Notes: generated by a model not told the origin, from the letters alone. Positions 16,888 to 35,713 are shown, numbered from the stretch's first letter. The stretch: 64,000 nucleotides of DNA from Candidatus Phelpsiimicrobium noxiivivens (GCA_001873995.1 MNVR01000035.1:1-64000); one strand, 5' to 3'. Program-made: numbers and translations.

Positions 16888-17259
16888 ATGCCCCAAGCGC
16901 CTATAGTTACGGACTATAGTTTTGTAGGCTCATTTTTCATCTTCGGCATCGTCTTTGTCGCGGCAGCGTTCATTATATCCTGGATGCTTCGCCCAAATGA
17001 CCCCAATGCCGTCAAAACCGCTCCATATGAATGCGGTGAGATCGTCAAAGGGAACTCCAGGGTGCAGTTTAACGTAAGCTACTACCTTGTCGCCCTACTC
17101 TTTGTTATATTTGATATAGAAGCATTATTTCTTATCCCCTGGGCCGTGGTATTCCGCCAGCTCGGGATGATCTCCTACATAGAAATGATGGCCTTTATTT
17201 TCATACTTTTGATCGGCCTTTTCTATGCCTGGAAAAAAGGGATATTCCAATGGCAATGA
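16888..17259 (+). CDS. nuoA: NADH-quinone oxidoreductase subunit A
   Basis: 123 residues with three TM helices. The conserved loop [20 protein letters not shown] and the helix [15 protein letters not shown] are diagnostic for NuoA. It is a membrane-arm subunit next to the quinone channel. It overlaps nuoB by 10 bp and is first in an 11-gene complex I set that lacks nuoE, nuoF and nuoG. Confidence 0.95.
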
Positions 17260-17774: not shown

Positions 17775-18204
17775 TCTGCTAAAAGCTAAATTTCCGCGGA
17801 TAGCAAAAGAAGAAGGAACTTCTGCCGTTATCATCCCCAAAGAGCTGCTCCTGGAATTTGGGCGATTTATCAAAGACGCCCCCCTTATCTTTGACGACCT
17901 GCATTGCGTGACAGCTATTGACAAAAAAGAAAAGATCGATCTGGTCTATATCTTTTACTCTAACCCCCTCCAACATAGCCTGACGCTAAAAATATACTTA
18001 GGCCCGGAAGATCCAAAAGTCGAAAGTTTGGCAGCGATCTGGAAGTCCGCGAATTGGCTTGAGCGCGAAACTTACGACCTCTTTGGCGTTACCTTCCTCA
18101 ATCATCCGGACCCAAGGCGTATATTAAATCCCTACGACTGGAAAGGCTATCCTTTAAGAAAAAATTATTCGGCCCCAAATTTTATCGCAAAACCAAAACT
18201 TTAA
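17752..18204 (+). CDS. nuoC: NADH-quinone oxidoreductase subunit C
   Basis: 150 residues of the 30-kDa subunit family, with [22 protein letters not shown] and GYPLRKNY near the C-terminus. It is a peripheral-arm scaffold next to NuoD. It is separate from NuoD here, unlike in E. coli, where nuoC and nuoD are fused. Confidence 0.93.
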
Positions 18205-18208
18205 CGTC

Positions 18209-19339: not shown

Positions 19340-20298
19340 TGTTCACACTGCTTAACCTTACTAACATGATAACAACAGGGATCGCCGTCCTTGGTTTCAT
19401 AGCCATTTCAGCCATGTTTTTGATCTGGTGGGAAAGAAAAGTTTCAGCGCATATCCAAACTCGGCTTGGGCCAATGCGAGTCGGCTGGCACGGCATACTG
19501 CAATCAGTAGCCGACGCGATAAAACTTTTATTAAAAGAAGATATCCGGCCGGCCGGCGCGGATAAACTGGTGTGGTGGCTGGCGCCTTTCTTTGTAGTCG
19601 TTCCTTCGGTCATGGCGTTTGCTACTATCCCCTTTGGAAAAACTCTGATCCCGAAAGACCTCAACATCGGCGTATTATACATCCTGGCGGTCTCTTCTGT
19701 CTGCGTCCTGGGAGTATTTATGGCTGGCTGGGGTTCAAATAATAAATATTCTCTCTTAGGCGGAATACGAGCAGCAGCTCAGATCATAAGCTATGAGGTC
19801 CCTCTCATACTCTCAATGATAACAGTAGTGATGTACGCGAATACACTGTCAATGCAAAAGATCGTTGAATCGCAAAGCCACTCATGGAATATCCTCCATC
19901 CGAATTTGGCATTGGCAGGCCTGATCTATATCACCTCAGCTACCGCTGAAGTCAACCGGGCGCCATTTGATATACCTGAGGCGGAATCGGAGCTTGTGGC
20001 TGGATTTCATACAGAATATTCAGGGATGAAATTCGCTATGTTCTTTATCGGGGAATACACAAATCTTTTCATTATTTCGGCTATCGCGACAACTCTATTT
20101 TTCGGAGGCTGGAAAGGCCCTCTGCTGCCTGGGGTCATATGGTTCCTGATCAAAACTTATAGTATTATATATATCCTCATGTGGATCAGGTGGACCTTTC
20201 CCAGGCTTCGCGTAGATCAATTAATGGGATTCGCCTGGAAATTTTTAACACCAATATCTTTTCTAAATTTGGCTATTGCAGGATGGCTGCTTCTTTAA
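19339..20298 (+). CDS. nuoH: NADH-quinone oxidoreductase subunit H
   Basis: 319 residues with about eight TM helices. Conserved loops include WWERKVSAHIQTRLGPMRVG and NRAPFDIPEAESELVAGFHTE, which line the quinone entry and the first proton path. It ends MRWTFPRLRVDQLM...W, as in the family. Stop TAA shares its last A with the nuoI ATG. Confidence 0.95.
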   Translation: MFTLLNLTNMITTGIAVLGFIAISAMFLIWWERKVSAHIQTRLGPMRVGWHGILQSVADAIKLLLKEDIRPAGADKLVWWLAPFFVVVPSVMAFATIPFGKTLIPKDLNIGVLYILAVSSVCVLGVFMAGWGSNNKYSLLGGIRAAAQIISYEVPLILSMITVVMYANTLSMQKIVESQSHSWNILHPNLALAGLIYITSATAEVNRAPFDIPEAESELVAGFHTEYSGMKFAMFFIGEYTNLFIISAIATTLFFGGWKGPLLPGVIWFLIKTYSIIYILMWIRWTFPRLRVDQLMGFAWKFLTPISFLNLAIAGWLLL

Positions 20299-20738
20299 TG
20301 TTAAGATCAATGAACAACATTATTACCGGGATTTTAAGCCTTATCAAGGGGCTCATCATCACTTTTAATAATAATTTTACCTCTGCGACAACTCTCCAGT
20401 ACCCTGATGAAAAAAAAGCGATGACCGAACGTTTCCGTGGGCTCATCGATCTTTACCCGGAAAAATGCGTTGCCTGTTATCAGTGCGTAAAGGCCTGCCC
20501 TACGGCTTGCCTTGCAATGACGCATAAACAAACGGATGAAAAGAAAAAAATAACCAATACATTTACTTACAACATCGAACTCTGCTGTTTCTGCGGCTTA
20601 TGCCAACAAGTTTGCCCAACAGGGGCTATCTATATGAATAAGATCTACGAGATCACAACTTATGAACGTAATAAATTATATATTAACCTATTAAATCCTG
20701 AGAAATATGATGAGTGGCCTCATACATCTCCTAAATAG
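20298..20738 (+). CDS. nuoI: NADH-quinone oxidoreductase subunit I
   Basis: 146 residues from the ATG at 20298. The frame is open further upstream but would lie wholly inside nuoH, and no homologous sequence begins there. Two ferredoxin motifs, CVACYQCVKACP and CCFCGLCQQVCP, bind clusters N6a and N6b. In this complex, without NuoG, NuoI is the outermost Fe-S subunit, so it is the likely entry point for reduced ferredoxin or flavodoxin. Its C-terminus overlaps nuoJ by ~30 bp. Confidence 0.93.
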   Translation: MLRSMNNIITGILSLIKGLIITFNNNFTSATTLQYPDEKKAMTERFRGLIDLYPEKCVACYQCVKACPTACLAMTHKQTDEKKKITNTFTYNIELCCFCGLCQQVCPTGAIYMNKIYEITTYERNKLYINLLNPEKYDEWPHTSPK

Positions 20739-21252
20739 CCACGGGCTGACCGAAGACACTATCATAAAAGCCACCTTCTATGGCATTGCCGGCCTGACTG
20801 TACTCTTTGCTTTTTTTGTTGTTATCGCCCGGAACATCTTTCATAGCGCGTTGTCTCTCGCCGTAGTCTTAATAGGCGTAGCGTGCGCGTACCTATACTT
20901 GGACACCGAGTTCTTAGCAACTGTCCAGGTCTTAGTCTACGTAGGAGCCATCATGACCTTGTTCATATTTACGATCATGCTGACAGCGGATGTCCATAAA
21001 AAGATGTCTTTAAAGATAAACCCGCGTGTCCTGCTCTCGGCTTACGCCGCGGCGCTCATCCTGATCATACTGATCAAAATTATCAACGCGGGCCCATGGC
21101 TACCAGAGGTAAAAGACGCGGTACCCTTAGATCTCGCGCAACTGGGAAGGTCTTTGATGACAAATTATGGGCTTCCTTTTGAAGTAATATCTTTACTTTC
21201 TCTCGCCGCGCTCGTAGGCGCCATTGTCATAGGAAAGACAGAAAAAAAATGA
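20707..21252 (+). CDS. nuoJ: NADH-quinone oxidoreductase subunit J
   Basis: 181 residues, five TM helices. The motif FLATVQVLVYVGAIMTLFIF is diagnostic (pi-bulge helix TM3). A second possible ATG lies one codon later at 20710. Four-base overlap with nuoK (ATGA). Confidence 0.94.
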   Translation: MMSGLIHLLNSHGLTEDTIIKATFYGIAGLTVLFAFFVVIARNIFHSALSLAVVLIGVACAYLYLDTEFLATVQVLVYVGAIMTLFIFTIMLTADVHKKMSLKINPRVLLSAYAAALILIILIKIINAGPWLPEVKDAVPLDLAQLGRSLMTNYGLPFEVISLLSLAALVGAIVIGKTEKK

Positions 21253-21557
21253 TACCGCAAAACCACTTTTTGATCTTAAGCGCCATCCTTTTCGCGATCG
21301 GCATATTTGGCGTTTTGACGCGAAAGAACGCTATAGGCATACTTATGTCTATCGAACTGATCCTAAACGCCGCGAACATCAATCTCATAACATTCAATAA
21401 ATTCCAAAAGACCCCTGATGGGTTAGGGCAGATCTTCGCGCTCTTCGTGATAGCTATAGCAGCCGTATCAGCGGTAATAGGCCTGGCTCTGGTAATCTCT
21501 ATATACAGGAACGCCAAAACCATACTCGTAACTAAAATAAATTTAATGAAATGGTGA
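21249..21557 (+). CDS. nuoK: NADH-quinone oxidoreductase subunit K
   Basis: 102 residues, three TM helices, with the membrane Glu in MSIELILNAANINLI and the C-terminal VIAIAAVSAVIGLALVISIYR. It is an antiporter-like (MrpC-type) subunit. Overlaps nuoJ and nuoL by 4 and 7 bp. Confidence 0.95.
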   Translation: MIPQNHFLILSAILFAIGIFGVLTRKNAIGILMSIELILNAANINLITFNKFQKTPDGLGQIFALFVIAIAAVSAVIGLALVISIYRNAKTILVTKINLMKW

Positions 21558-23470
21558 AATTCGCTCATCTCATCCCCATTTTCCCGTTTTTGGCTTTTGC
21601 CATTCTAATACTCTTTGGCCGTAAGCTCAAAAGATCAAGCGCGATCATCTCTATCGCGGCATCATTGATATCTCTTCTTATAGTCATATTGACTTTTCAT
21701 GGCCTGCTCAAAGGCCAAGGCTCCTACAAATTGTTTGACTGGCTTGTTTTTAACGGCATTACATTACGCGTAGGCGTCATCGTAGACCCTTTAACATGCA
21801 CGATGCTTCTTGTTGTGGCAACAATAGGCAGCCTTATACAGGTCTATTCCATAGGCTATATGAGTGATGACCCGAGGTTCTCAAGGTTCTTCGCGTATAT
21901 GTCTCTTTTTATGGCATCCATGCTGGGGCTTCTGCTCGCGGATAACTTTGTCACTCTCTATATGTTCTGGGAAGGCGTCGGGCTTTGTTCATACCTGCTG
22001 ATCTCTTTCTGGTTTGAAAAGGCCTCCGCCGCGAAAGCCGGCATGAAAGCCTTCATCACGACCAGGATAGGAGACGCGGGCCTTCTCTTAGGGATATTTC
22101 TGTTATTTTTCTCAACACACGACCTTTCTTTCTCGGGACTTTCAGCCATAACCGGCCATCCGGCGTTATACACAACAGCCGCGTTATTGATCTTCTGCGG
22201 AGCTATCGGAAAATCAGCGCAGTTCCCTCTTCACGTCTGGCTGCCTGATGCCATGGAAGGCCCAACTCCGGTCTCAGCGCTTATCCATGCCGCGACGATG
22301 GTTGCCGCGGGAGTCTATTTGGTCGCCAGGTGTTTCGCCTTATTTTTCACGCATCAACCCGCGCTGGTCTGCGTTGCCTATATCGGAGCGATAACCGCCA
22401 TAATGGCAGCTTCTATCGCGACAGTCAATAACGACATTAAACGGGTCCTCGCGTACTCCACTATAAGCCAGCTGGGCCTTATGATGATCGGCCTCGGAGT
22501 CGGCGGATATTCAGCCTCTACATTCCATCTCGTGACGCACGCGTTCTTCAAAGCGCTCCTATTCCTCTGCGCTGGCAGCATAATACATTCAGTCCATACG
22601 CAGGAGATCAATAAAATGGGAGGAATTTTTCATAAAATGAAAATAACGGGCACCGCGTTCATCATCGCGAGCCTGGCTATTTCCGGAGTGCCTCCTTTCT
22701 CTGGATTTTGGTCAAAGGATGAGATCATGACAGAGATCTTGCGTAGCGGGCACCCTATGATATTTATTGCCGCGACGATAACGAACTTATTGACCGCGTT
22801 CTATATGTTCAGGCTGATATTTTTGGTATTATTCGGTAAACCGCGCTCAGAACTTCATCCCCATGAATCTCCCAAAACGATGGCAATACCGCTTATCATA
22901 TTATCCATATTCGCGATATTCATGGGCCTGCCAGGGTCACCATTAATGAACAACGTGTTCCAACGATTCATTTATTTTGGCGCGGAGCATACAGCTTTAT
23001 CTTCTAACCCTGATCATTTCGTAATGGGGATTTCCGTCATTGTGGCTTTTTTAGGCATAGGCATAGCGTACGCGCTTTATATGCTCAACAAAGAGATCTT
23101 ATCTAAAAGTATCAGAAATAGGTTTACAGGGCTCTACGATCTTGTATATAACAAATACTATGTCGACGAGCTTTATGAGTTCCTGTTCATAAGGCCATGC
23201 GCGCGCCTATCTAAAGCTTTTTCCGGATTTGATCTTAAAGTAATAGACGGCGCGGTCAACGCGAGTGCGTCGATGGTCGTTTTCTTAAGCAAGGCCAAAG
23301 CATGGATCGACTCTAACATAGTTGATGGAACAGTAAATATGATAGCGCGGGCCGTAGGCATGTTGTCAGGAGAATTGCGCAAGATGCAAACCGGTTATAT
23401 TCAATCTTATCTGCTAACCGCGTTCATGGGCCTTATACTTATCCTACTTTTAAAAATAATAGGAGGCTAA
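21551..23470 (+). CDS. nuoL: NADH-quinone oxidoreductase subunit L
   Basis: 639 residues, the largest antiporter-like subunit. It shows the MFWEGVGLCSYLLI motif with the pumping Glu, HVWLPDAMEGPTPVSALIHAATMVAAGVY, and the long C-terminal lateral helix region ending in a final TM. It forms the distal ion-pumping channel. It follows nuoK by an overlap of 7 bp and precedes nuoM by 2 bp. Confidence 0.95.
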   Translation: MVKFAHLIPIFPFLAFAILILFGRKLKRSSAIISIAASLISLLIVILTFHGLLKGQGSYKLFDWLVFNGITLRVGVIVDPLTCTMLLVVATIGSLIQVYSIGYMSDDPRFSRFFAYMSLFMASMLGLLLADNFVTLYMFWEGVGLCSYLLISFWFEKASAAKAGMKAFITTRIGDAGLLLGIFLLFFSTHDLSFSGLSAITGHPALYTTAALLIFCGAIGKSAQFPLHVWLPDAMEGPTPVSALIHAATMVAAGVYLVARCFALFFTHQPALVCVAYIGAITAIMAASIATVNNDIKRVLAYSTISQLGLMMIGLGVGGYSASTFHLVTHAFFKALLFLCAGSIIHSVHTQEINKMGGIFHKMKITGTAFIIASLAISGVPPFSGFWSKDEIMTEILRSGHPMIFIAATITNLLTAFYMFRLIFLVLFGKPRSELHPHESPKTMAIPLIILSIFAIFMGLPGSPLMNNVFQRFIYFGAEHTALSSNPDHFVMGISVIVAFLGIGIAYALYMLNKEILSKSIRNRFTGLYDLVYNKYYVDELYEFLFIRPCARLSKAFSGFDLKVIDGAVNASASMVVFLSKAKAWIDSNIVDGTVNMIARAVGMLSGELRKMQTGYIQSYLLTAFMGLILILLLKIIGG

Positions 23471-23472
23471 GA

Positions 23473-24951
23473 ATGTCTTTTCCGATCTTGACATGTATTG
23501 TATTCGCGCCGCTGGCCGGCAGTATGCTCATCTTATTCACGCCAAAGAAAAACGTAAATTTGATTAAGGTTATCGCGACGCTCGCGACCGCGGCCGCGCT
23601 TTGCCTTTCGGTCCTCTTACTCATCAAATTCAACTACAGCTCTCCTGCAATGCAATTCGAAGAGAAAGCGGCGTGGATACCTTCGATCAATGCGTGGTAT
23701 CATCTTGGCGCGGATGGGATAAGCGTCGGGCTCATATTCCTGACCACACTATTAAGTTTCCTGGCGTGCATTGGATCGTCCGGTATCAAGATCCGGCAAA
23801 AAGAATACTTCTTTTTGTACCTATTGCTGTCAACGGGAATGTTGGGTACTTTTACAGGCCTAGACATGGTCCTGTTCTATATGTTTTGGGAAATTGTCCT
23901 AGTGCCTATGTATTTTTTAATAGGGATATGGGGCGGACAAAGAAAAGAATACGCGGCTATAAAGTTCTTCATATACACACTTGCTGGGTCTGTTTTCATG
24001 TTGTTAGGTATCCTGGCGCTTTATTTCACATCCACACCGCACACTTTTGACATCCTTGAACTTACTAAAACGGGCGGCGCTTTGACACTTAGCGTTCAGA
24101 TCCTCATATTTATAGCCTTTTATCTGGGGTTCGCAGTAAAAGTGCCCGTGTTTCCTTTCCATACATGGTTGCCGGACGCGCATGTGGAAGCGCCCACTCC
24201 TATAAGTGTCTTGCTTGCCGGGGTATTGCTCAAAATGGGCGGATACGGCTTTTTTAGGATAAGTTTCCCTATCCTAAAAGACGCGGCGCATTACTTTATC
24301 CTGCCATTCGCTATTTTAGGAATGATAAACATCATCTATGGCGCTCTAGTGGCAATGGCACAGACAGATTTCAAAAAAATGGTAGCCTATTCATCCGTCA
24401 GCCATATGGGATTTGTCATGTTGGGTTTGGCCAGCATGACGGCAACGGGATTTAACGGCGCCCTGCTTGAGATGTTCAATCACGGTATCATTACCGCAGG
24501 CATGTTCTTTCTCGTAGGCGTTCTCTATGACCGCGCCCACACAAGAGAACTTGATAAATTCGGAGGGCTAGGCGTAAAAATGCCTGTCTATGCCGGTATG
24601 TTATCCGTATTCGCTCTCGCTTCTTTAGGCCTTCCAGGCCTAAGCGGATTTATCAGCGAATTCATGTCTCTCTTGGGAACATATCCAACATTTAAATTGA
24701 TAACGATCATCTCAAGCCTGGGTTTGATCATAACCGCGGGCTATTTCTTATACATGCTTCAACGGATCCTATTAGGCCCAGTGAATGAAAAATGGTCCGC
24801 GATATCCGATATAAATAAGCGCGAACTCCTGACACTCATACCGCTTTTGATAATAGTAGTCATTATAGGTATATATCCTTTATCAGCCCTTAAGTATCAG
24901 ATAGCGGCTATCAGCGCGCTTGTTCAAAACTTAGGAGGAATAGCATTTTGA
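23473..24951 (+). CDS. nuoM: NADH-quinone oxidoreductase subunit M
   Basis: 492 residues, about 14 TM helices. FYMFWEIVLVPMYFLIGIWGG holds the key Glu, and FHTWLPDAHVEAPTPISVLLAGVLLKMGGYG the conserved Lys-containing helix. It is a proton/sodium antiporter-like subunit. The stop overlaps the TTG start of nuoN. Confidence 0.95.
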   Translation: MSFPILTCIVFAPLAGSMLILFTPKKNVNLIKVIATLATAAALCLSVLLLIKFNYSSPAMQFEEKAAWIPSINAWYHLGADGISVGLIFLTTLLSFLACIGSSGIKIRQKEYFFLYLLLSTGMLGTFTGLDMVLFYMFWEIVLVPMYFLIGIWGGQRKEYAAIKFFIYTLAGSVFMLLGILALYFTSTPHTFDILELTKTGGALTLSVQILIFIAFYLGFAVKVPVFPFHTWLPDAHVEAPTPISVLLAGVLLKMGGYGFFRISFPILKDAAHYFILPFAILGMINIIYGALVAMAQTDFKKMVAYSSVSHMGFVMLGLASMTATGFNGALLEMFNHGIITAGMFFLVGVLYDRAHTRELDKFGGLGVKMPVYAGMLSVFALASLGLPGLSGFISEFMSLLGTYPTFKLITIISSLGLIITAGYFLYMLQRILLGPVNEKWSAISDINKRELLTLIPLLIIVVIIGIYPLSALKYQIAAISALVQNLGGIAF

Positions 24952-26381
24952 GCTTTATAGAAACATTTCAATTCATTTTGCCGGAAGTTATATTACTAGT
25001 CTTTGCTCTGGCCATCCTAGTCTGTTCTTTATTGATGAGAAGCAAAGGCCTCTTAGGCGCGCTCGCTCTCACGGCGGTCGTTCTAGCATCGCTCTTTTTG
25101 CCCCGCGTAAATACAACGCATGCCAGCCTATTTTTTAATATGCTCACGGATGACGCGTTCTCAACTTTTTTTAAAGTTATCTGCCTATTTATCACAGGCG
25201 TCATCATCCTGATCTCCATGGGCTATAAAACGTTACAGAGCGGTCATATTGGAGAATATTATTTTCTCCTTCTCAGCGCCACCATAGCCATGTTGTTGGC
25301 CGTGTCGTCCAACAACCTCATTATGATCTACATATCCTTAGAGATGCTCTCTTTGGCCTCCTACATCCTTGTGGGCTTTTTCAAACACGACGATCTTTCA
25401 AGCGAAGGCGCTTTAAAATATTTTATTTTCGGCGCGCTCTCAACAGGGATCATGCTCTACGGCATCTCACTTATTTATGGCGTGTTCGGCACTATGGATC
25501 TGTCAGCAATAGCCAACACACTAAAGACAGCCCCAACCAACGCTCTGATATCATCAGTTTTGCTTTTATTCATCCTGGCAGGCTTGAGTTTCAAATGCGC
25601 GCTTGTGCCCTTCCATATGTGGGCGCCGGATGCCTATCAGGGAGCGCCCACGTCTATCTCCGCGTTTATTTCCGTAGGGCCCAAAGCTGTAGGTTTCGCT
25701 GTGCTTCTGCGCATATTCACAAGAAATTTCTTACCTCTATACGCGGACTGTGTGACTATCATTATGCTCGTATCGGTCTTTACAATGACCATAGGGAATA
25801 TCATCGCCATCTCACAAACCAATATAAAACGCATGTTAGCCTATTCCTCCATAGCGCAGGCCGGTTATATACTGATCGGCTTTGTCGTAGGAACCGCGTC
25901 CGGCACAGAAGGCGCCTTGTATTATATTTTTGCCTACACCTTAATGAACCTTGGGGCTTTCGGATGCATAGTCCTTATTTCTAACTCAATAAGAAGCGAC
26001 AATATCGAAGATTACGCGGGACTCTCCAAAAAAGACCCAGTTTCGGCGTTTATGCTGGCTGTTTTTCTTTTGTCGCTTGCTGGGATCCCGCCCTTAGCAG
26101 GATTTTTTGGAAAATTCATGGTGTTCGCGGCTGCCATTGGATCAAAATTTATATTTTTAGCCGTTGCAGGCGCCTTAAACAGCGTTATCGCGGTTTATTA
26201 TTATGTTAAGGTCATAAAGTATATGTATTTAGATGAACCCAAAGCCACGGAAATGAAGAAAAACCCCGCGCCTCTTCAGATCGCGCTCATCATTATCATG
26301 ATAGGCGTGTTGATAGCCGGAATTTACCCATCCCCATTTTTGAATTGGATCAGGCTATCACAGGTTTTTTTCTTACAATAA
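24948..26381 (+). CDS. nuoN: NADH-quinone oxidoreductase subunit N
   Basis: 477 residues, starting at TTG (24948) in the TTGA overlap with nuoM. A strong ribosome site (TTAGGAGG) sits ahead of it, which decides the start. Motifs are ISLEMLSLASYILVGF with the pumping Glu, FHMWAPDAYQGAPTSISAFI and PPLAGFFGKF. It is the last subunit of the 11-subunit set. A 164-bp gap with a possible promoter follows. Confidence 0.95.
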   Translation: MSFIETFQFILPEVILLVFALAILVCSLLMRSKGLLGALALTAVVLASLFLPRVNTTHASLFFNMLTDDAFSTFFKVICLFITGVIILISMGYKTLQSGHIGEYYFLLLSATIAMLLAVSSNNLIMIYISLEMLSLASYILVGFFKHDDLSSEGALKYFIFGALSTGIMLYGISLIYGVFGTMDLSAIANTLKTAPTNALISSVLLLFILAGLSFKCALVPFHMWAPDAYQGAPTSISAFISVGPKAVGFAVLLRIFTRNFLPLYADCVTIIMLVSVFTMTIGNIIAISQTNIKRMLAYSSIAQAGYILIGFVVGTASGTEGALYYIFAYTLMNLGAFGCIVLISNSIRSDNIEDYAGLSKKDPVSAFMLAVFLLSLAGIPPLAGFFGKFMVFAAAIGSKFIFLAVAGALNSVIAVYYYVKVIKYMYLDEPKATEMKKNPAPLQIALIIIMIGVLIAGIYPSPFLNWIRLSQVFFLQ

Positions 26382-26545: not shown

Positions 26546-28381
26546 ATGTTAGATCTTTTACCAAAACATATTTTCCTATCCGATCCACTTTCGCTGTTCT
26601 TCCTTTTCGTCATCTTTATCGTTTCCCTCCCGTCAGCCATCTATTCCTTCGGCTATTTAAAAGGGGAATACCCGCTTAAAAAAATAATCCTTTCCTGGTT
26701 CCTGCTGGCTATTTTTATCTTATCAATGGCGGCAGTGGTAACAGCAGGTAACGTGTTGGTATTTCTTGTGGCATGGGAGATGATGTCTTTGGCCTCATAT
26801 TTCCTTGTAGTCTTTGATACCACGCATGAAAGATCTATCAAGGCTGGCACGATCTACGTAGTCATGACGCAGATCGGCGCTGCCTTTTTAATAGCCGCGT
26901 TCATGATCATGTATTCCTACGCGAGATCCTTTGATCTCTTTGCTTTAAAAAATGCCTGCCTGGCTATGCCTGCTCAGACTAAAAATATTATTTTTGTGTC
27001 ACTCTTGATCGGCTTCGGTACCAAGGCAGGTATTGTGCCATTGCATATATGGCTGCCCTATGCCCATCCTCAGGCGCCAAGCCATATTTCAAGCATCATG
27101 TCCGGTGTTATGATCAAAACGGCTATTTATGGTATCATCCGGTTTGTTATGTTTATCCTCGGAGTAAGCGCTGCCTGGTGGGGAGTTTTAGTCCTGATCC
27201 TCGCGGTGATCTCTTGTCTTGTAGGTGTTATCTACGCCCTTATGGAACACGATATAAAAAAATTGCTCGCTTACCATAGCGTGGAAAATATAGGAATTAT
27301 ACTGCTAGGAGTAGGGCTGGCGATGTTTTTTACCAGTCAGGGCCTGCCTTATCTAGCCGTATTCTCTTTGATGGCCGGTTTATATCATTTGGTAAACCAT
27401 GCCATTTTTAAAGGCCTGCTGTTTTTATGCGCCGGCAGTGTGTATAAAGCCACAGGCACGCGGGATATTGAAAAGTTGGGAGGCCTGATCAAAACAATGC
27501 CATACACCGCGGCTTATTTTTTATTAGGCGCTATGGCGATCTCCGCCTTGCCGCCCCTGAATGGTTTTGTCAGCGAGTGGCTGACTTTGCAGGCGTTCTT
27601 TTTAGGGGCTCTCAACGTCATAGGTGGAACCAAGCTTTTTCTGGGGTTCTGCGCGGTAATGCTGGCTTTAACCAGCGGCTTAGCTGCCGCCTGTTTTGTC
27701 AAGGCCTTCGGAATAACCTTCCTGGCCGGGCCTAGAAGCCATTACGCGAAAGAAGCGAAAGAAGTCTCTTTATCCATGAAAGCAGGCATGTTTTTCTTAT
27801 CGCTTCTAACGATCGTCTTCGGCCTGGCCGCGACGATGATCATAAGATACCTGACAAGGGCCGCGGGCTCTGCCATGGATATAGACATAAGCCACATGCA
27901 ATTTTCTTTGAATAATATCACTCTGAACCCACAGGCAGGCAAAAGTATTTATCTTTCCCCGCCATTGCTCGCGTTGGTGCTGCTTGTCCTGGGAATCACA
28001 GGCCTTGTTATCTTTTGTGCCTGGCGCAGAAAAAGATCAGTCCGTCACAATACCTGGGATTGCGGCTACTACAGATTAGACGCGCGCAACGAATATACAG
28101 CGACTGCTTTTTCAAAACCATTTAGGATAGCCTTCAGTTTTTTTCTTCTGCCTTACCGCAAGACGCAAAAGATCAGAGAGTCGTTTTATCACGTTAGATC
28201 ATTCACCTATGAAACGCATACGATCCAGGTTTTTAAAAAATACCTCTATGACCCAGTCCTGGTTTTAGTCTTTAGATCAGCCAAGTCCATGAGGCGCCTT
28301 CAGCCTGGCAGTATCCATCTATATTTGATGTACATCTTTATTACGATAATTTTATTGATCGTATTTATGCGGTGGTTTTAA
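26546..28381 (+). CDS. hyfB: Ehr complex membrane subunit, HyfB/HycC-like (antiporter-like)
   Basis: 611 residues, about 16 TM helices. The core is the NuoL/M antiporter domain: WEMMSLASYFLVVFD with the Glu, GIVPLHIWLPYAHPQAPSHISSIMSGVMIK, and YHLVNHAIFKGLLFLCAGS. The C-terminal extension RRLQPGSIHLYLMYIF is the hallmark of HyfB/HycC of hydrogenase-4 and formate hydrogenlyase. It should translocate ions in the hydrogenase-related complex. First of six tightly packed genes (1-3 bp gaps). Confidence 0.9.
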   Translation: MLDLLPKHIFLSDPLSLFFLFVIFIVSLPSAIYSFGYLKGEYPLKKIILSWFLLAIFILSMAAVVTAGNVLVFLVAWEMMSLASYFLVVFDTTHERSIKAGTIYVVMTQIGAAFLIAAFMIMYSYARSFDLFALKNACLAMPAQTKNIIFVSLLIGFGTKAGIVPLHIWLPYAHPQAPSHISSIMSGVMIKTAIYGIIRFVMFILGVSAAWWGVLVLILAVISCLVGVIYALMEHDIKKLLAYHSVENIGIILLGVGLAMFFTSQGLPYLAVFSLMAGLYHLVNHAIFKGLLFLCAGSVYKATGTRDIEKLGGLIKTMPYTAAYFLLGAMAISALPPLNGFVSEWLTLQAFFLGALNVIGGTKLFLGFCAVMLALTSGLAAACFVKAFGITFLAGPRSHYAKEAKEVSLSMKAGMFFLSLLTIVFGLAATMIIRYLTRAAGSAMDIDISHMQFSLNNITLNPQAGKSIYLSPPLLALVLLVLGITGLVIFCAWRRKRSVRHNTWDCGYYRLDARNEYTATAFSKPFRIAFSFFLLPYRKTQKIRESFYHVRSFTYETHTIQVFKKYLYDPVLVLVFRSAKSMRRLQPGSIHLYLMYIFITIILLIVFMRWF

Positions 28382-28382
28382 T

Positions 28383-29306
28383 ATGAACAAAATATTGCTA
28401 TTGACCCTTCAGTTGGCTTTTTTTATAACTGTAGCTCCGCTGTTAAGCGGCCTGATCACAAAAATAAAGAATAATATCAGGATGCGCGAGGGCCAAAGTG
28501 TTTTTCAGCCCTATTATAATTTAGTAAAGCTTTTTTCAAAGAGTGAGGTAATATCTGGGACTGCTTCCTGGATATTCAGGTCAGCGCCTTTTGTGGTGTT
28601 TTCTTCAACACTTACGGCGGCCCTTCTTATACCTGTATTTATTTTTACAAGCCCCGCTCATACCATGGGAGATCTTTTGGCCATGGTATTTATTTTTGCT
28701 TTAGGCCGTTTTTTCCTGGCTCTTGCTGCCCTGGACACAGGAAGTTCTTTCGGCGGCATGGGTTCATCAAGAGAAATGTTTATTTCAAGCCTGGTAGAAC
28801 CCGCGCTGTGCATGGTGATATTCGCGGTATCTCTGCAGTTCGGCTCAACGGATATTTCCACGTTCAGCGGCGCGCATGCAATATCGGTCTCTTCCATTGT
28901 AGCCGCGCTCGCTTTATTCCTTGTTTCCATAGCGGAAACTTCCCGCATACCTGTGGATAATCAAGAGACACATTTAGAATTGACCATGGTGCACGAGGCC
29001 ATGGTATTAGAGTATTCTGGCAGGCCGCTGGCATTGATCGAGATGGCTTCTTACATAAAACAGATGGTATTCTTTTTCCTGATCGCCCAGATAGTCTTCC
29101 CGATCTGCCTGCCTTCTTACGAAAATTTGGCACAGGCGTTCTCCTGGGCCTCATGGTATTGTGTCAGGATAATCCTTATTTCTATCGCAGCGGCTTTGGT
29201 AGAGGTGGCCGTCGCCAAGATGAGGCTGTTGCGGGTAGCAGATTTTCTGGAATTTGCTTTTGTTTTAGGTGTCATAGCTTGTGTATGCGCGATCGTAGGA
29301 GTATAA
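28383..29306 (+). CDS. hyfC: Ehr complex membrane subunit, HyfC/HycD-like (NuoH homologue)
   Basis: 307 residues, about eight TM helices. Diagnostic sequences are REGQSVFQPYYNLVKLFSK near residue 35 and DNQETHLELTMVHEAMVLEYSGRPLALIE in the NuoH-like loop. It anchors the peripheral catalytic subunits to the membrane. 3-bp gap from hyfB and 1-bp gap to hyfE. Confidence 0.9.
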   Translation: MNKILLLTLQLAFFITVAPLLSGLITKIKNNIRMREGQSVFQPYYNLVKLFSKSEVISGTASWIFRSAPFVVFSSTLTAALLIPVFIFTSPAHTMGDLLAMVFIFALGRFFLALAALDTGSSFGGMGSSREMFISSLVEPALCMVIFAVSLQFGSTDISTFSGAHAISVSSIVAALALFLVSIAETSRIPVDNQETHLELTMVHEAMVLEYSGRPLALIEMASYIKQMVFFFLIAQIVFPICLPSYENLAQAFSWASWYCVRIILISIAAALVEVAVAKMRLLRVADFLEFAFVLGVIACVCAIVGV

Positions 29307-29307: not shown

Positions 29308-29943
29308 ATGCAGGGTATAATATTATTTACGGTTTTAGCCTCAACATATCTCATGGTCATCGCGAAAAGAATGCCTGCTTTGATCCGCGGCTTTCGTTTC
29401 CAGTCGTTCTGCCTATTCGCGCTGACTTTGATCATGGCGTTTAGCGAGCACAGGCTGGATCTATATATCATCGCGGTGCTGCTATTCGTTTTAAAAGTTT
29501 CTCTTATACCGCATTTTTTATACCGGACCATCAGAAGAATAAGGGCAAATGAAAACCTGGGCCTATTTATAAATCCACAGTTGTCCCTGATATGGGCTAT
29601 GGCGTTTACCTATTTGTCCTGGATCTTTGCCGCGCGTTTGGCTGTTTTTGGCCAAGCTATACTAATCGGTGTGATGGCCATAGCTTTTTTTATCATTTTG
29701 GCCGGTATGTTTTTAATGATGTCCCGGATGTCCGCGCTCGCGCAGATCATAGGGCTATTAGTCATGGAGAATGGGTTATTCATGCTTGCCTCAACGGTCT
29801 CCGGAGGTATGCCTTTTTTTGTGGAGATCGCCATCTTCTTTGACGTGTTCATGAGTGTTCTGATAATGGGCATTTTTGTCTTTCGTATCAACAAACTTTT
29901 TACGCACATTGATGTAAATAAACTTTCGCGTTTGAAGGGATAA
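29308..29943 (+). CDS. hyfE: Ehr complex membrane subunit, HyfE-like
   Basis: 211 residues, about six to seven TM helices. The motif LLVMENGLFMLAS with a membrane Glu resembles NuoK/HyfE, and the loop PHFLYRTIRRI is typical of HyfE. It provides part of the ion path in hydrogenase-4-type complexes. Confidence 0.85.
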   Translation: MQGIILFTVLASTYLMVIAKRMPALIRGFRFQSFCLFALTLIMAFSEHRLDLYIIAVLLFVLKVSLIPHFLYRTIRRIRANENLGLFINPQLSLIWAMAFTYLSWIFAARLAVFGQAILIGVMAIAFFIILAGMFLMMSRMSALAQIIGLLVMENGLFMLASTVSGGMPFFVEIAIFFDVFMSVLIMGIFVFRINKLFTHIDVNKLSRLKG

Positions 29944-29946
29944 GGC

Positions 29947-31404
29947 ATGCAGATATCTTTGATACTGGGAATACCAGCCTTGCTTTCCATAGGCGCATTG
30001 TTCCTCGGGAAGCGAAAGATCTTTGGGATAGTCAATTGCATCGGTTATCTGACGGTATTGTGTTGCGCGATAGGCCTGTTCATAGAAATGATATTATCAA
30101 ACAGCGCCAAGGTTTTTCGGAGTTTTATATACCTGGACCTCTTAAGCGCGTATTTCATACTGGTCATCTCAGTAGTAGCTTTCGCGGCATCCATTTATTC
30201 TATCGGCTACATCAAAAAAGACATCGCGAATAAGGCAATATCAGAGAATAAAGCCAGGTTCTATTACTGCCTTTTTGATCTGTTCTGCTTTTCCATGTTC
30301 TTAGTCCCTGCCGTGAATAACCTGGGCATACTATGGGTGGCCATTGAAATGACCACTCTTATCTCTGCGTTCCTTGTGGGATTTTATAATTCTAAAGAAT
30401 CAGTTGAGGCCGCGTGGAAATATATCATCATTTGTTCCGTGGGCATCATTTTCGCGCTTTTAGGCACAATACTTCTTGTCTACGCGCTTTCTATTTCCGG
30501 ATTGAGCAAGAGCCTCAACTGGTCGGACATTGTGCCAGTGGCGCATCTATTGGATAAAAATATCCTCAAAGTCGCGTTTATTTTTATCCTCGTAGGATAC
30601 GGGACAAAGGCAGGCCTGGCGCCCATGCATACCTGGCTGCCCGACGCGCATAGCCAGGCCGTGGCTCCCATAAGCGCGCTTCTCTCCGGGGTATTATTAA
30701 AAACTGCAATATACGCCATTTTAAGATTTGGCATTATCGTGATCAAGGGAGTTGGTTTTGCGTATTTTGGCAACCTGATGATCTTATTGGGTATGCTCTC
30801 TTTGGCTATATCATGCGGCTTTATTCTGGTACAGAAAGACCTAAAGAGATTGCTTGCTTATCATAGCATTGAACATGTAGGCATCATCTCTATCGGCTTT
30901 GGGATAGGCGGGGCATTAGGCATAGGCGGCGCCTTGCTGCATATATTTAATCATGCCGTAACAAAGTCACTTATGTTTTTTGGCGCCGGTAATGTCGTCA
31001 ATAAATACCAGACGCATAATATGCATATCATACGAGGAGTACTACGCGCGATGCCATTTACGGGGTTTATGCTTCTTATGGGAGCTTTTGCCCTCGCGGG
31101 CATGGCGCCTTTTTCTATTTTTATAAGCGAGATCTTGATCATATGCTCCGCTTTTCTTAAAGGGTCTTATCTTGTAGCTTTTTTATTATTGGGTTTTATC
31201 GCCATTATTTTTGGCGCGGTCGTGCATCATTTTAGTAAAATACTATTCGGCAACGCGCCTAAGGGCATGTCTGTGGAAAAAGAACCCTTAAGCGGAAAAC
31301 TGGCATTTTTATTCTTGTCCTTTCCGATCTGCGCGCTATGGATCGCTCTGCTTTTTACAAATAAGGACCTCACATGGATCATCCAGAAATTATTCCAGGC
31401 ATAA
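29947..31404 (+). CDS. hyfF: Ehr complex membrane subunit, HyfF-like (antiporter-like)
   Basis: 485 residues, about 14 TM helices. Antiporter motifs are WVAIEMTTLISAFLVGFYNS, APMHTWLPDAHSQAVAPISALLSGVLLK and HIFNHAVTKSLMFFGAGN. The HSQAVAPISALLSG variant separates HyfF-type from NuoM and NuoN. Together with HyfB it gives the complex two antiporter-like modules. It overlaps the large-subunit gene by 31 bp. Confidence 0.9.
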   Translation: MQISLILGIPALLSIGALFLGKRKIFGIVNCIGYLTVLCCAIGLFIEMILSNSAKVFRSFIYLDLLSAYFILVISVVAFAASIYSIGYIKKDIANKAISENKARFYYCLFDLFCFSMFLVPAVNNLGILWVAIEMTTLISAFLVGFYNSKESVEAAWKYIIICSVGIIFALLGTILLVYALSISGLSKSLNWSDIVPVAHLLDKNILKVAFIFILVGYGTKAGLAPMHTWLPDAHSQAVAPISALLSGVLLKTAIYAILRFGIIVIKGVGFAYFGNLMILLGMLSLAISCGFILVQKDLKRLLAYHSIEHVGIISIGFGIGGALGIGGALLHIFNHAVTKSLMFFGAGNVVNKYQTHNMHIIRGVLRAMPFTGFMLLMGAFALAGMAPFSIFISEILIICSAFLKGSYLVAFLLLGFIAIIFGAVVHHFSKILFGNAPKGMSVEKEPLSGKLAFLFLSFPICALWIALLFTNKDLTWIIQKLFQA

Positions 31405-32951
31405 AAAATAAGTTCGTGGATCTTAACCCGCTTTCCGTTTCCATGCCCTATCCGGATGAAGTGGTTTTACAAATAGATCCGCGGGATTTTAAAAATACCT
31501 GCCTGGCGCTGCATAAGATACTTTTTTCTCCGGTCATGGCGCTTTTTGCTCTGGATGAAAGAAGAGAAACAGGAAACTACAGGATCAATGCTATATTCTT
31601 AGATCTTAAGAACAGCCGCTGGATCACAGCCAGTATAGCTGTCGCTCAGGATGTTCCATGCTTTGATTCACTGGCAAAGAGCATATACTCAGCAAATCTC
31701 TTTGAAAGAGAGATCTGGGAAATGTTCGGGATCGAGCCAAAGGGCCATCCCGACCTGAGACGGCTGAGGCTGCACGATGAAGTCTGCGCCAAAGAAAATT
31801 ATCCCTTGCGTAAAGATTTTCAAAAAATACAATACGGCGATCCAAGCGATTATAAATTTGCCAGGGTGGAAGGCGATGGCATATTTGAAGTCCCTGTCGG
31901 GCCGGTGCACGCAGGAATAATTGAGCCTGGGCATTTCAGATTCAGCGTTGCCGGAGAGCCTATCATAAACTTAGAGCTAAGGCTTGGATTCACGCATAGG
32001 GGCGTAGAAAAACTCTTTGAAGGCAAGCGTTATCCTGACGCGATCAAGCTCTCAGAACGTATCTCAGGCGACTCAAGTTTTGCCCATAGCCTTGCTTTTA
32101 CCCAGGCCGCGGAAAAGATATCGGGCGCGCTTATACCAACACAAGCGGCTTATTTAAGATGCATCTTCTTAGAACTTGAACGCATGTATAATCACGCGAA
32201 TGATATAGGCGGCATAGCAACTGATGTAGGGTTTAGCTTCCCCTCTGCCTATGCCTCGATCATTAAAGAAGCGATCCTTCAATTAAACGATAGGCTTACC
32301 GGCAGCAGATATCTTAGATCGATCAATACCGTAGGGGGAGTTTTAACCGATATTGACGAAAACAAGAAACAAATACTTATTGATGCCCTGAAACACATAA
32401 AACATGATTTTGATGAATTGGTTAAAATGTTATATTCCAGCGTTTCTTTTATGGACAGAGTGGATACTACGGGAGTTTTACGCAGAAAAACCGCCGAGGA
32501 CTTGGGCGTAGTCGGCCTTATCGCGCGCGCTTCAGGCATACCTACGGATTTGAGAAAGTATTTTTCGGACATATACAAAGAAGCCAAACTTAAAATGGCA
32601 ACACAGGAATCCGGAGATGTCTTAGCCAGATTAAGGGTCAGGATCTCTGAATTCAAAGAATCATGCCGTTTGACTGAAGAATTCACGGCAAGGCTTAATA
32701 AAGGCGAAATATTAAGAACAGGGCCTGTATCAAAAGGCGGCAGTGCCTTAGGTTACGCGGAAGGATGGCGCGGGCCGGTTTTGTACTGGCTTAAAACAGA
32801 CCCCACGGGCTTGATCCAGAGATGCAAGATAGTTGACCCGTCTTTTCTCAACTGGCAAGGGCTATCGTATGCCGTATTAGGGAATATTATCCCTGATTTT
32901 CCGCTGTGTAACAAAAGCTTTGATCTGTCATATTCAGGAAACGATCTTTAA
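31374..32951 (+). CDS. hyfG: Ehr large subunit: HyfG-like protein lacking the Ni-Fe cysteines
   Basis: 525 residues. The N-terminal ~150 residues are a NuoC-like domain (LFEREIWEMFGIEPKGHPDLRRL) fused to a NuoD/hydrogenase-large-subunit domain (GPVHAGIIEPGHFRFSVAGE). In true group 4 hydrogenases the first motif reads RxCGxC and the last DPCxxC. Here the equivalents are RISGDSS (229-235) and DPSFLNW (~488-494), so all four Ni-Fe ligands are absent. This is the signature of Ehr (energy-converting hydrogenase-related) complexes. The redox partner or substrate is unknown, so it should not be annotated as hydrogenase. The start has an AAGGA ribosome site at good spacing inside the hyfF end. Confidence 0.88.
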   Translation: MDHPEIIPGIKNKFVDLNPLSVSMPYPDEVVLQIDPRDFKNTCLALHKILFSPVMALFALDERRETGNYRINAIFLDLKNSRWITASIAVAQDVPCFDSLAKSIYSANLFEREIWEMFGIEPKGHPDLRRLRLHDEVCAKENYPLRKDFQKIQYGDPSDYKFARVEGDGIFEVPVGPVHAGIIEPGHFRFSVAGEPIINLELRLGFTHRGVEKLFEGKRYPDAIKLSERISGDSSFAHSLAFTQAAEKISGALIPTQAAYLRCIFLELERMYNHANDIGGIATDVGFSFPSAYASIIKEAILQLNDRLTGSRYLRSINTVGGVLTDIDENKKQILIDALKHIKHDFDELVKMLYSSVSFMDRVDTTGVLRRKTAEDLGVVGLIARASGIPTDLRKYFSDIYKEAKLKMATQESGDVLARLRVRISEFKESCRLTEEFTARLNKGEILRTGPVSKGGSALGYAEGWRGPVLYWLKTDPTGLIQRCKIVDPSFLNWQGLSYAVLGNIIPDFPLCNKSFDLSYSGNDL

Positions 32952-32954: not shown

Positions 32955-33464
32955 ATGCTGCATATACTAAAAAATAGGATCTTAAAAGGCGTCGTCACCC
33001 GGCACATTGGGCTTAAACTATCCAAAGAGATAGAGTCGGCCGGTTCTGAATTGAGCTCATTGATCCGGAAAAAATTCGGCAGGTCCCTGCATATACGCGA
33101 AGTTGACACCGGTTCTTGCGGGGCATGCGAATCAGAGATCATCGCGGCAAATAACCCTATTTATGACTTACAGCGGTTTGGCATCCAATTTGTAGCCTCG
33201 CCCAGGCACGCAGACTGCCTTTTGGCCACCGGCCCCGTATCCAAAAATATGTTTATGGCCCTCAAGAAGACCTATGAAGCCATGCCTGAGCCTAAATTTG
33301 TCATTACCTGCGGAGATTGCGCTTTAGACGGAGGATTATTTAAAGATTCTTATTACGTCCAAGGCCCTGTAAAAGATATCCTTCCGGTCGTCTTACATAT
33401 TCCAGGCTGCCCTCCGGATCCTTTAACGATAATAACAACCCTGCTGGATTTTTTAAGAAAATGA
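32955..33464 (+). CDS. hyfI: Ehr small subunit, HyfI-like (NuoB homologue)
   Basis: 169 residues. Four cysteine positions are intact: CGACESE (two Cys), ITCGDCALDGG and IPGCPPDP. It can therefore bind the proximal [4Fe-4S] cluster even though its large-subunit partner has lost the Ni-Fe site. The N-terminal ~50 residues precede the cluster. No HyfH/HycF-type ferredoxin subunit is encoded in the cluster, so the electron donor to this subunit is unknown. Confidence 0.9.
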   Translation: MLHILKNRILKGVVTRHIGLKLSKEIESAGSELSSLIRKKFGRSLHIREVDTGSCGACESEIIAANNPIYDLQRFGIQFVASPRHADCLLATGPVSKNMFMALKKTYEAMPEPKFVITCGDCALDGGLFKDSYYVQGPVKDILPVVLHIPGCPPDPLTIITTLLDFLRK

Positions 33465-33470: not shown

Positions 33471-34289
33471 ATGAAAATATTAAGTAAGGAAGTTTTGGCC
33501 AGCGATAAAGGCGCGCGGATAGTAAAGGTCATTGTCCAATCACCTGATATCGCCGCCAAAGCAAAGGCGGGACAGTTCGTTGTCCTGATGGTAAAGGAAG
33601 AAGGCGAAAGAATACCTTTGACCATCGTAAAGGCTGATCCAAGCAAAGGCTCTATTGAACTTATCGCGCAAGAAGCCGGGCTTACCACAAGGTTGCTGGC
33701 TGCTACAAAAACAGGAGACTCCCTCTATTCTATTACCGGACCTCTGGGACATCCTACTGACATCAAGCGCTACGGAAAAGTCATACTAGTAGGCGGAGGT
33801 GTAGGCATCGCTGAGATACTGCCTGTTGCCAAGGCATTAAAAGATGCCGGCAATAATGTTACCGCCATAATCGGATCTCGCAATAAAGAACTTTTAATCC
33901 TTGAACGCGAATTAAAAACAGCCTCAGACGAATGCATTGTCATAACAGACGATGGTTCATATGGCCGCAAGGGATTTGTAACCCAAGCCCTCAAAGAACT
34001 GCTTGAAAGCTCAAAATATGATCTTGTATATGCCGTAGGCCCCATACCCATGATGAAGACTGTTTCCGTAATAACAAAACCGTTAGGAGTGCTAACCCTT
34101 GTTTCTCTTAACGCTATCATGGTTGACGGTACCGGTATGTGCGGCTGCTGCAGGGTCAGCGTAAACAACGAAGTGAAATTCAGCTGTGTTGACGGCCCTG
34201 AATTTGACGCGAGCCAAATCGACTGGGATGAGCTCTCAAAACGTAATAGTATTTATTGTGAAAAAGAAAAACATATTTGCCGGATATGA
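33471..34289 (+). CDS. nfnA: NADH-dependent ferredoxin:NADP+ oxidoreductase, alpha subunit
   Basis: 272 residues. FAD/NAD domains of the ferredoxin-reductase fold are visible (AGQFVVLM, ERIPLTIVK, VGGGVGIAEILPVAKAL). The C-terminus carries a [2Fe-2S] set, MCGCCRVSV...FSCVDGPEF. This matches NfnA (also named SudB), which holds the NADH site of the bifurcating NfnAB enzyme. It begins 6 bp after hyfI and overlaps nfnB by 4 bp. Confidence 0.88.
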   Translation: MKILSKEVLASDKGARIVKVIVQSPDIAAKAKAGQFVVLMVKEEGERIPLTIVKADPSKGSIELIAQEAGLTTRLLAATKTGDSLYSITGPLGHPTDIKRYGKVILVGGGVGIAEILPVAKALKDAGNNVTAIIGSRNKELLILERELKTASDECIVITDDGSYGRKGFVTQALKELLESSKYDLVYAVGPIPMMKTVSVITKPLGVLTLVSLNAIMVDGTGMCGCCRVSVNNEVKFSCVDGPEFDASQIDWDELSKRNSIYCEKEKHICRI

Positions 34290-35713
34290 AAAAAGAACCA
34301 ATTAGGCCTAAGGAAAAAGACATCATTCCCAGGGTTAAGGGTTTTGATGAAGTAGTACAGGGCTTTTCCGAACAAGAAGCGCTGCAAGAGGCGGCGCGTT
34401 GCATCCAATGTAAAGACCCCAAATGCATAGCGGGTTGCCCTGTCGGTATTGATATTAAGGCATTTATAAACCAGATAACTAAAAAAGATCACGACGGCGC
34501 GTATTTTACCATCTGTCAAAAGAATAACTTCCCTTCTATCTGCGGACGGATATGCCCGGCCGAATATCAATGCCGCAAGGCCTGTGTGTTTACTAATAAA
34601 CGATCACCATTTGCGTCTAAAGAGGCCATAAATATCCATTTTCTAGAAAGATTTGTAGGAGACAACGGCGCCCGTAAAGGCCTCCAGGCAAAAGCAGAAG
34701 GCAATAATAAATATTCTGGGATGAAAGTAGCTGTCGTCGGTTCAGGCCCAGCCGGCTTATGCTGCGCCGGAGAACTGGCAAAGCGCGGTATTAAGGCCGT
34801 CATTTTCGAAGGGCTGCATAAAACTGGCGGGGTCTTAAGATACGGCATCCCTCCTTTCAGGCTTCCGAACAATATTTTGGATCTTGAGATAGATTCGCTT
34901 AAAAAACTAGGCGTTGAAATAAAAACTAATTACATTATCGGCAGAGTAAAAACGATAGATGAGCTTTTCGCCGAAGGTTTTCGCGCCATTTTCCTTGGAC
35001 TTGGCGCAGGCGTGCCTTCTTTTATAGGTATTCCTGGCGAAAATTTGTGCAATATTTATTCGGCGAATGAATTTTTAACCAGAGTTAACCTGATGCGCGC
35101 CCATAAATTTCCCGAATACCACACACCGGTCAATATAGGCAAACATATAATAGTTATAGGGGGCGGGAATACGGCGATAGACGCGGCACGTGTTGCCCTA
35201 AGGCTCCAGCATATGAATGGAATTGAGCAGGATACCTCTATTTCCTATAGGCGCACTGAGGCAGAGATGCCGGCGCGCCGGCTTGAAATAGAACATGCCA
35301 GGGAAGAAGGCGTCAAATTCGACCTTTTAGTAAAACCTGAAAGCTTCGTAGGCGATGAAAAAGGTTTTGTCAGAAAGATGCGTTCTTCGCGGTGTAAACT
35401 CGCAGAGCAGGATAACAGCGGCAGGCGCAGGCCGATCGTCATTCCTGACAGCTCTTTTGAAGCTGATTGCGATCTTGCTATAATAGCTATAGGATCAGGG
35501 GCCAACAAAATACTTACCAGCGTTACGCCTCGGCTTGCAATTGATCAATACGGCAACGTCACGATCAACCCTGAGACTATGGAAACTTCCATAAAGGGAG
35601 TTTTCGCCGGAGGAGATATTACCGCGGGTGAAGGAACTGTTATAGAAGCAATGGGGATGGCCAAAAAAGCGTCTTGCGCTATTTTGAATTATTTAGAAAA
35701 ACGCTATAATTAA
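34286..35713 (+). CDS. nfnB: NADH-dependent ferredoxin:NADP+ oxidoreductase, beta subunit
   Basis: 475 residues from the ATG at 34286 (ATGA overlap with nfnA); a TTG three codons earlier is less likely. The N-terminal Fe-S domain has CIQCKDPKCIAGCP and CGRICPAEYQCRKAC. The FAD site is AVVGSGPAGLCCAGELA (~residue 150) and an NADPH-binding GGGNTAIDAARVA follows. The C-terminus is FAGGDITAGEGTVIEAMGMAK. The same fold occurs in glutamate synthase small chain (GltD), but the immediate nfnA partner favours NfnB. The electron-bifurcating reaction links NADPH, NAD and ferredoxin. Confidence 0.88.
   Translation: MKKEPIRPKEKDIIPRVKGFDEVVQGFSEQEALQEAARCIQCKDPKCIAGCPVGIDIKAFINQITKKDHDGAYFTICQKNNFPSICGRICPAEYQCRKACVFTNKRSPFASKEAINIHFLERFVGDNGARKGLQAKAEGNNKYSGMKVAVVGSGPAGLCCAGELAKRGIKAVIFEGLHKTGGVLRYGIPPFRLPNNILDLEIDSLKKLGVEIKTNYIIGRVKTIDELFAEGFRAIFLGLGAGVPSFIGIPGENLCNIYSANEFLTRVNLMRAHKFPEYHTPVNIGKHIIVIGGGNTAIDAARVALRLQHMNGIEQDTSISYRRTEAEMPARRLEIEHAREEGVKFDLLVKPESFVGDEKGFVRKMRSSRCKLAEQDNSGRRRPIVIPDSSFEADCDLAIIAIGSGANKILTSVTPRLAIDQYGNVTINPETMETSIKGVFAGGDITAGEGTVIEAMGMAKKASCAILNYLEKRYN

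Follow-up and report, generated by a model that had tools for sequence, protein, structure and literature searches.

An Ehr-type complex lacking all nickel-iron ligands in Candidatus Phelpsiimicrobium noxiivivens, and relatives that have also lost their small-subunit cluster ligands

The window considered here is a stretch of 64,000 nucleotides from Candidatus Phelpsiimicrobium noxiivivens (GCA_001873995.1 MNVR01000035.1:1-64000), belonging to a genome assembly of 1.56 Mb in 39 contigs that is 91% complete. It holds a complete six-gene operon, hyfB-C-E-F-G-I (26546-33464, all on the + strand), that encodes an Ehr-type complex, an assignment proposed in a first-pass annotation of the DNA and on which gene content, fold, motif loss, and a tree placement among lineages with published Ehr agree. 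Our subject is the large subunit of this complex, which has lost every Ni-Fe ligand of its hydrogenase relatives, and the function that such a complex may serve.

The operon and its large subunit

The operon and the motifs of its large subunit lie as follows, counted from the first letter of the window.

26546..28381, + strand: hyfB-like membrane subunit of 611 aa, antiporter type; Proton_antipo_M and, at a score under the curated cut-off, NCBIfam hydrogenase 4 subunit B (E 5e-189)
28383..29306, + strand: hyfC (NuoH-like) membrane anchor; PF00146 (E 3e-33)
29308..29943, + strand: hyfE membrane subunit; sub-threshold match (E 7e-24) to NCBIfam hydrogenase 4 membrane subunit; position kept in nearly all related operons
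29947..31404, + strand: hyfF antiporter-type membrane subunit; sub-threshold match (E 7e-139) to NCBIfam hydrogenase 4 subunit F; overlaps the large-subunit gene by 31 bp
31374..32951, + strand: hyfG, Ehr large subunit (NuoC + NuoD type fusion) with Ni-Fe ligands lost, from domains, alignment, and AlphaFold fold match
32058..32078, + strand: former L1 motif RISGDSS, residues 229-235; Ser231 and Ser234 at the HycE L1 cysteine positions
32835..32855, + strand: DPSFLNW, residues 488-494; conserved (DPSFhNW family-wide), pairs with HycE ATYANW, not L2
32916..32945, + strand: true former L2 motif SFDLSYSGND, residues 515-524; Ser519 and Gly522 at the HycE L2 cysteine positions
32955..33464, + strand: hyfI small subunit; C55, C58, C122, and C152 are its [4Fe-4S] cysteines; nearest solved chains MbhJ (6cfw_J) and HycG (7z0s_G)

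The 525-residue product of hyfG joins Complex1_30kDa and Complex1_49kDa domains and gives a weak NiFe-hydrogenase match. Escherichia coli HycE (7z0s_E) is both its closest solved chain by sequence (E 2e-61) and the best PDB fold match to its AlphaFold model (pLDDT 90.7, TM 0.93); the model used 82 sequences, a 26-sequence version being poor around L2 and the loop. At L1, the window's SERISGDSSFAH pairs with SDRVCGICGFAH of HycE, placing Ser231 and Ser234 at both L1 cysteines, as the first-pass annotation had it when it read RISGDSS as a replaced RxCGxC. Its choice of DPSFLNW as the replaced L2 has to be corrected: that stretch falls upstream of L2, and in the HMMER alignment it is SFDLSYSGND that pairs with HycE SLDPCYSCTD, exchanging one cysteine for Ser519 (HycE C531 in the numbering of PMC9474812, the chain number minus 12) and the other for Gly522. 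The loss of all four ligands holds despite the misplaced motif and, because all four are gone, the large subunit cannot be that of a [NiFe] hydrogenase. The maturation tail is likewise absent, since the protein stops at residue 525, one residue past L2. Among 109 aligned copies, 92 have no residue beyond L2, 14 have one, and three, truncated copies among them, have more.

These features are shared across the family, in which L1 reads [SAC]-G-D-[STNE] and L2 reads NKSF[DN]LSYxGxDL, then stops. Each of approximately 105 readable large subunits keeps at most one of the four Ni-Fe cysteines, and only the first L1 cysteine survives in three relatives of the window's own class (G137, G146, G141). 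In the three close relatives L009, L015, and L017, the stretch around that cysteine reads VCGDS, VCGNS, and VCGDA, the other three ligands being gone. The HycE canopy residues R478, D529, and S283 correspond to R466, D517, and N273, and the loop residue E193 to E184. R466 is invariant in the family; residue 517 is Asn (77) or Asp (25); residue 273 is Asn in 95 of 105 homologues, as in complex I; and at residue 184, 82 have Glu and 21 have Gly. The window keeps this Glu, as do most other phyla, but its nearest relatives mostly have Gly. The quinone-site residues of complex I, H38 and Y87 of Nqo4 (PMC7684303), correspond to Ile183 and Gly232, both invariant in 105 homologues.

Conservation extends through the membrane arm. 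HyfB E78, K160, K238, H285, K289, and E344 are invariant in 87 homologues, as is the acidic chain of HyfC (E139, E185, E199, E205, and E274) in 89, and HyfF E134, K158, K221, H228, and K340 are conserved in 93-95 of 95. The genes themselves form a conserved block in approximately 100 loci, some truncated by contig ends, in the order hyfB-C-E-F-G-I or hyfI-B-C-E-F-G; no HyfA/HyfH/NuoI-type ferredoxin, dehydrogenase, or Nfn gene is part of the block across these loci, and the window operon has no polyferredoxin electron-input subunit. Tandem pairs of Ehr-like operons were seen at L108, L124, and L136 (Geobacteraceae and an Altiarchaeales metagenome-assembled genome, MAG).

The open reading frame 31374-32951 is real and under purifying selection, with a ratio of nonsynonymous to synonymous substitution rates (dN/dS) against the nearest relative of approximately 0.09, and approximately 0.11 for the small subunit. 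A profile search found close orthologues in approximately 29 of 147 relatives, and a pattern scan found at least 568 relatives across many bacterial and archaeal phyla. Because loci L069-L148 were found by the patterns GPVHAGII and CNKSF[DN]LS, part of the conservation in these stretches comes from that selection; the bias touches neither L1 nor the profile-found loci. That the window comes from a 39-contig assembly might raise the thought of a sequencing error, or of a pseudogene with lost ligands, but the chance of either is negligible: independent assemblies across phyla carry identical substitutions, which rules out sequencing or assembly error or chance, dN/dS is near 0.1, the operon is intact, and the fold is confident.

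Nor was a true large subunit for this operon found elsewhere in the 91%-complete assembly, an outcome that the first-pass annotation had named as one that would overturn its claim. Besides hyfG, PF00374/PF00346 are matched there only by NuoD of complex I and by an intact soluble [NiFe] hydrogenase on another contig (C2, L005 553-2755), which has RICGIC and DPCISC motifs, its own small subunit, and a gamma-like subunit. A small-subunit profile run over the whole genome returned nothing besides the window's HyfI and NuoB. An apparent maturation protease gene lies beside the soluble hydrogenase; with that gene and an intact enzyme, the organism can probably build real Ni-Fe sites. A hydrogenase label for the window complex would be wrong, as had been cautioned, but "NADH-quinone oxidoreductase" is at least an equally likely mislabel: the nearest curated NCBIfam models are those of complex I, with NuoD below cut-off and NuoB just above.

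Relatives without small-subunit cluster ligands

The window's small subunit keeps its four cluster cysteines, as first proposed, with the spacing found in MbhJ and HycG. Eight relatives have lost three or more of these ligands: L074, L079, L081, L093, L112, L128, L130, and L136. At the ligand sites, the small subunits of L074, L079, L081, and L093 read GS[T]NACEQE, VGD[D]A, and IPG[D]PP; that of L112 reads GSSNAEE, VGDGA, and IPGDPP; those of L128 and L136 read GSDN[SA]TE, GDDA, and PGNPP; and that of L130 reads GGATDCA, GDAA, and PGSPP. The same loss is seen in three further candidate-phyla genomes (L184-L186). A divergent actinobacterial relative without cluster ligands, L195 (G221), was left out of the count, and L090 was set aside as a candidate on account of its tandem cysteines (GSPNCCE).

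The eight loci fall into three separate clades on the large-subunit tree. One comprises Levybacteria, Daviesbacteria, a Thermoleophilia MAG, and two unassigned MAGs; a second comprises two archaeal MAGs; the third is Agromyces bauzanensis, whose genome comes from an isolate and most of whose actinobacterial relatives retain the cysteines. Genome-wide searches of the eight genomes found no second Ehr-type small subunit. Extra small subunits in the archaeal genomes G152 and G154 were considered as spares and rejected, as they belong to ordinary Ech hydrogenases with L1 intact.

The rest of the machine persists. In the pocket of the large subunit, G232, D233, R466, N513, K514, S519, Y520, and D524 are each present in eight of the eight, and HyfB, HyfC, and HyfF keep their charged channel residues with few exceptions. 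One cluster-less pair gives a dN/dS of approximately 0.07, with synonymous divergence near saturation. That the [4Fe-4S] ligands have gone from at least three separate lineages, with pocket and channel residues conserved, is new here; in the main-text passages covered, from open papers on Ehr, we found no mention of such loss in Ehr small subunits. Because at least eight relatives have lost the ligands and kept the rest, redox chemistry in the head is not essential to all Ehr complexes. If the machine has stayed under selection after ligand loss, no electrons would pass through the head in those lineages; and as the pocket is conserved in like form with and without a cluster, it probably does not serve electron transfer to a substrate. 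The first-pass annotation had written of a redox reaction as "unknown," which presumes that there is one; with at least eight relatives in three clades lacking the small-subunit [4Fe-4S] ligands, this wording cannot be kept.

Neighboring genes and genome setting

Around the Ehr operon, the window carries the following.

16888..26381, + strand: 11-subunit complex I (nuoA,B,C,D,H,I,J,K,L,M,N), a separate complex upstream of the Ehr operon
33471..34289, + strand: nfnA-like FAD/NAD(P)/2Fe-2S subunit, 7 bp after hyfI; a neighbor outside the conserved core
34277..35713, + strand: nfnB-like (gltA-type) subunit, NCBIfam gltA above cut-off; a neighbor outside the conserved core

The complex I locus lacks nuoE, nuoF, and nuoG and is separated from the Ehr operon by 165 bp; complex I genes were not found beside the Ehr core in the other Ehr loci examined. 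The pairing of NfnAB with Ehr is also a local arrangement, since Nfn-like genes occur irrespective of Ehr: of 39 relatives, 30 carry nfnB-like orthologues, many of them without having Ehr, and in G004 and G006 these genes lie far from Ehr. In the other Ehr loci examined, the one comparable neighbor is an nfnB-like gene, 30% identical, close to the L047/L048 operon. As a conserved electron-input module of the family, NfnAB was thus rejected, being absent from the block and unlinked in relatives.

Among 92 immediate same-strand neighbors, the recurrent families are PTS_EIIA_2 (10), SulP (7), HTH_17 (7), and ArsR-type HTH (approximately 6); response-regulator neighbors (cluster c0) are conserved but generic, and were ignored. 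The recurrent operon-like neighbors (SulP, PTS_EIIA_2, and ArsR) are not electron carriers. SulP stands beside Ehr on the same strand in Terriglobia, Methylococcales, the second-type Omnitrophota, Agromyces, and Geobacteraceae, in several cases with an overlap or a gap below 150 bp, and these groups are separate on the tree, in approximately five clades. Judged by the SulP matches in these genomes, only 1-7 in each, chance adjacency is unlikely. SulP-family genes adjoin Ehr at L059, L094, L102, L108, L130, L142, L145, L146, and L148, with an HTH_17 + PTS-EIIA protein between the two at L059 and L146. Three cluster-less candidate-phyla operons adjoin ATP-synthase genes: atpD at L192 and, by eye, atpC at L187 and L191.

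Farther out, 8371-15091 on the - strand looks by eye to encode HdrA, HdrB, HdrC, an MvhD-like protein, iron-sulphur proteins, and an FAD/NAD reductase, possibly a heterodisulphide-reductase-type electron module, and 53339-58327 holds an apparent molybdenum hydroxylase set (xanthine/CO dehydrogenase type) with accessory genes, also by eye.

Known systems and accounts of function

An Ehr complex without Ni-Fe ligands is an already published kind of complex. Earlier papers place it in ammonia-oxidising archaea (PMC10432482), comammox Nitrospira (PMC10284858), Geobacter (PMC7894505), Margulisbacteria and Saganbacteria (PMC6349859), and candidate-phyla bacteria (PMC7304191), and give its function as unknown or proposed only. 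In the candidate phyla, the large subunits lack metal-binding cysteines and group in a clade of their own (PMC7304191). The published complexes (such as GSU0739-45 of Geobacter sulfurreducens) share with the window copy the group-4-type subunits, the lost Ni-Fe cysteines, and the antiporter-like arm; the window copy has nfnAB directly downstream, but nothing sets it outside this kind. On our tree, its large subunit falls in one clade with sequences from Geobacteraceae, Nitrospirae, Nitrososphaerota, and candidate phyla, lineages for which Ehr has been published, and an Omnitrophota MAG is its nearest named relative among the tree rows. The Rv0082-Rv0087 "formate hydrogenlyase-like" cluster of M. 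tuberculosis probably has the same subunit set in the order hyfI-B-C-E-F-G, an arrangement that several of the loci studied here also show.

Three other systems frame the comparison. Formate hydrogenlyase (FHL) / hydrogenase-3 and -4 (HycE/HycG; HyfG/HyfI) provide the best sequence and fold match, with a common 30 kDa/49 kDa fusion, canopy Arg (R478, here R466), and loop Glu (E193, here E184); the window differs in lacking the four Ni-Fe ligands, the post-L2 tail, and HycB/HycF-type ferredoxin subunits. Complex I (NuoB/C/D/H/L/M) shares a homologous Q-module fold, the membrane arm, and the absence of Ni-Fe ligands, but the window has Ile183 and Gly232 for Nqo4 H38 and Y87, no NuoI, and a small subunit with CGAC rather than tandem CC, the CGAC spacing being that of MBH and FHL. 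MBS, the membrane-bound sulfane reductase of Pyrococcus, is likewise hydrogenase-derived with an altered Ni-Fe pocket; of the four Ni-Fe cysteines it retains two, against none in the window, and it has three [4Fe-4S] clusters as well as a proximal cluster with three cysteines (PMC7684303).

We favor, with a probability of only about 0.43, a complex-I-like ion translocator whose head is redox-inactive where the Ni-Fe site once was. The site would have become a metal-free polar pocket formed by Ser231-Gly232-Asp233-Ser234 from L1 and Asn513-Lys514, Ser519-Tyr520, and Asp524 from L2, with the canopy Arg (Arg466) and the loop Glu (Glu184) kept. Through a conserved Lys/Glu/His path, the membrane arm would move H+ or Na+; the head, derived from a hydrogenase, would serve for coupling or gating and reduce no substrate at the old site. 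In the window copy, the remaining [4Fe-4S] cluster could be a redox gate or a structural part, dispensed with in other lineages. Ion translocation, gating, and the lack of catalysis are what we infer, and translocation gated or supported by the head would be the simplest common function.

Several observations weigh against this proposal, and some of them favor another, in which ferredoxin or a low-potential donor reduces the HyfI cluster, a small acceptor is reduced in the former Ni-Fe pocket, and H+ or Na+ is pumped, the cluster-less relatives being a derived branch with changed function. Most Ehr small subunits, the window's included, keep four cysteines, with MBH-type spacing in the window and under purifying selection, which suggests that the cluster is functional in the majority of the family. 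Geobacter Ehr subunits increase in formate-grown cells (PMC7894505), which fits a redox role, and MBS sets a precedent for polysulphide reduction after Ni-Fe ligand loss (PMC7684303). No measured ion transport by any Ehr complex was found in the literature, and the neighboring genes suggest a function and go no further. Because the four cysteines are kept, such a redox-driven pump is almost as likely as the non-redox translocator for the window copy. It has to contend with pocket residues that are unchanged where no cluster can form, with the missing quinone His and Tyr, and with the lack of any conserved electron-input subunit or dehydrogenase neighbor, even if electrons could reach the cluster from a soluble ferredoxin, with no subunit set aside for the purpose.

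Two narrower redox schemes tie the head to particular partners. The same-strand run of hyfI-nfnA-nfnB, with its 7 bp gap and overlap, invites the idea that in this genome only an NfnAB-like pair docks on the Ehr head as its electron-input module to make an ion-translocating NADPH or NADH:ferredoxin complex, and Pyrococcus Mbx is described as a ferredoxin:NADP+ oxidoreductase complex (PMC6349859); we consider this improbable, as other Ehr loci lack such a neighbor, the two with the distant nfnB-like gene apart, and NfnB orthologues are as widespread and as detached from Ehr as set out above. Slightly less probable again is a formate dehydrogenase-Ehr complex, proposed for the sister lineages Margulisbacteria and Saganbacteria in the same paper (PMC6349859). 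Although the Saganbacteria Ehr lies near the window's on the tree, the window has no adjacent fdhA or nuoE/F-like genes, in a search that covered linked genes, and no dehydrogenase recurs among the 92 neighbors.

Ehr complexes occupy many bacterial and archaeal phyla and stand between [NiFe] hydrogenases and complex I; for annotation, the signature [SA]GD[ST] ... CNKSF[DN]LSYxGxDL-end separates them from both. For the non-redox translocator, the broader proposition would be that redox catalysis is not the basic function of Ehr complexes: they would be complex-I-like H+/Na+ translocators with the head as a gate, and several lineages would have shed every redox cofactor and yet kept the entire machine; this we hold more tentatively than the reading of the window copy. 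Through the SulP transporters beside them, they are possibly tied to bicarbonate or ion homeostasis. Given the cluster-less relatives, Ehr machines may move ions without any electron chemistry. Should those relatives prove functional, electron transfer through the head would be dispensable, a point with a bearing on the coupling of head and ion movement in complex I; the family would then include a complex I relative that runs without electrons.

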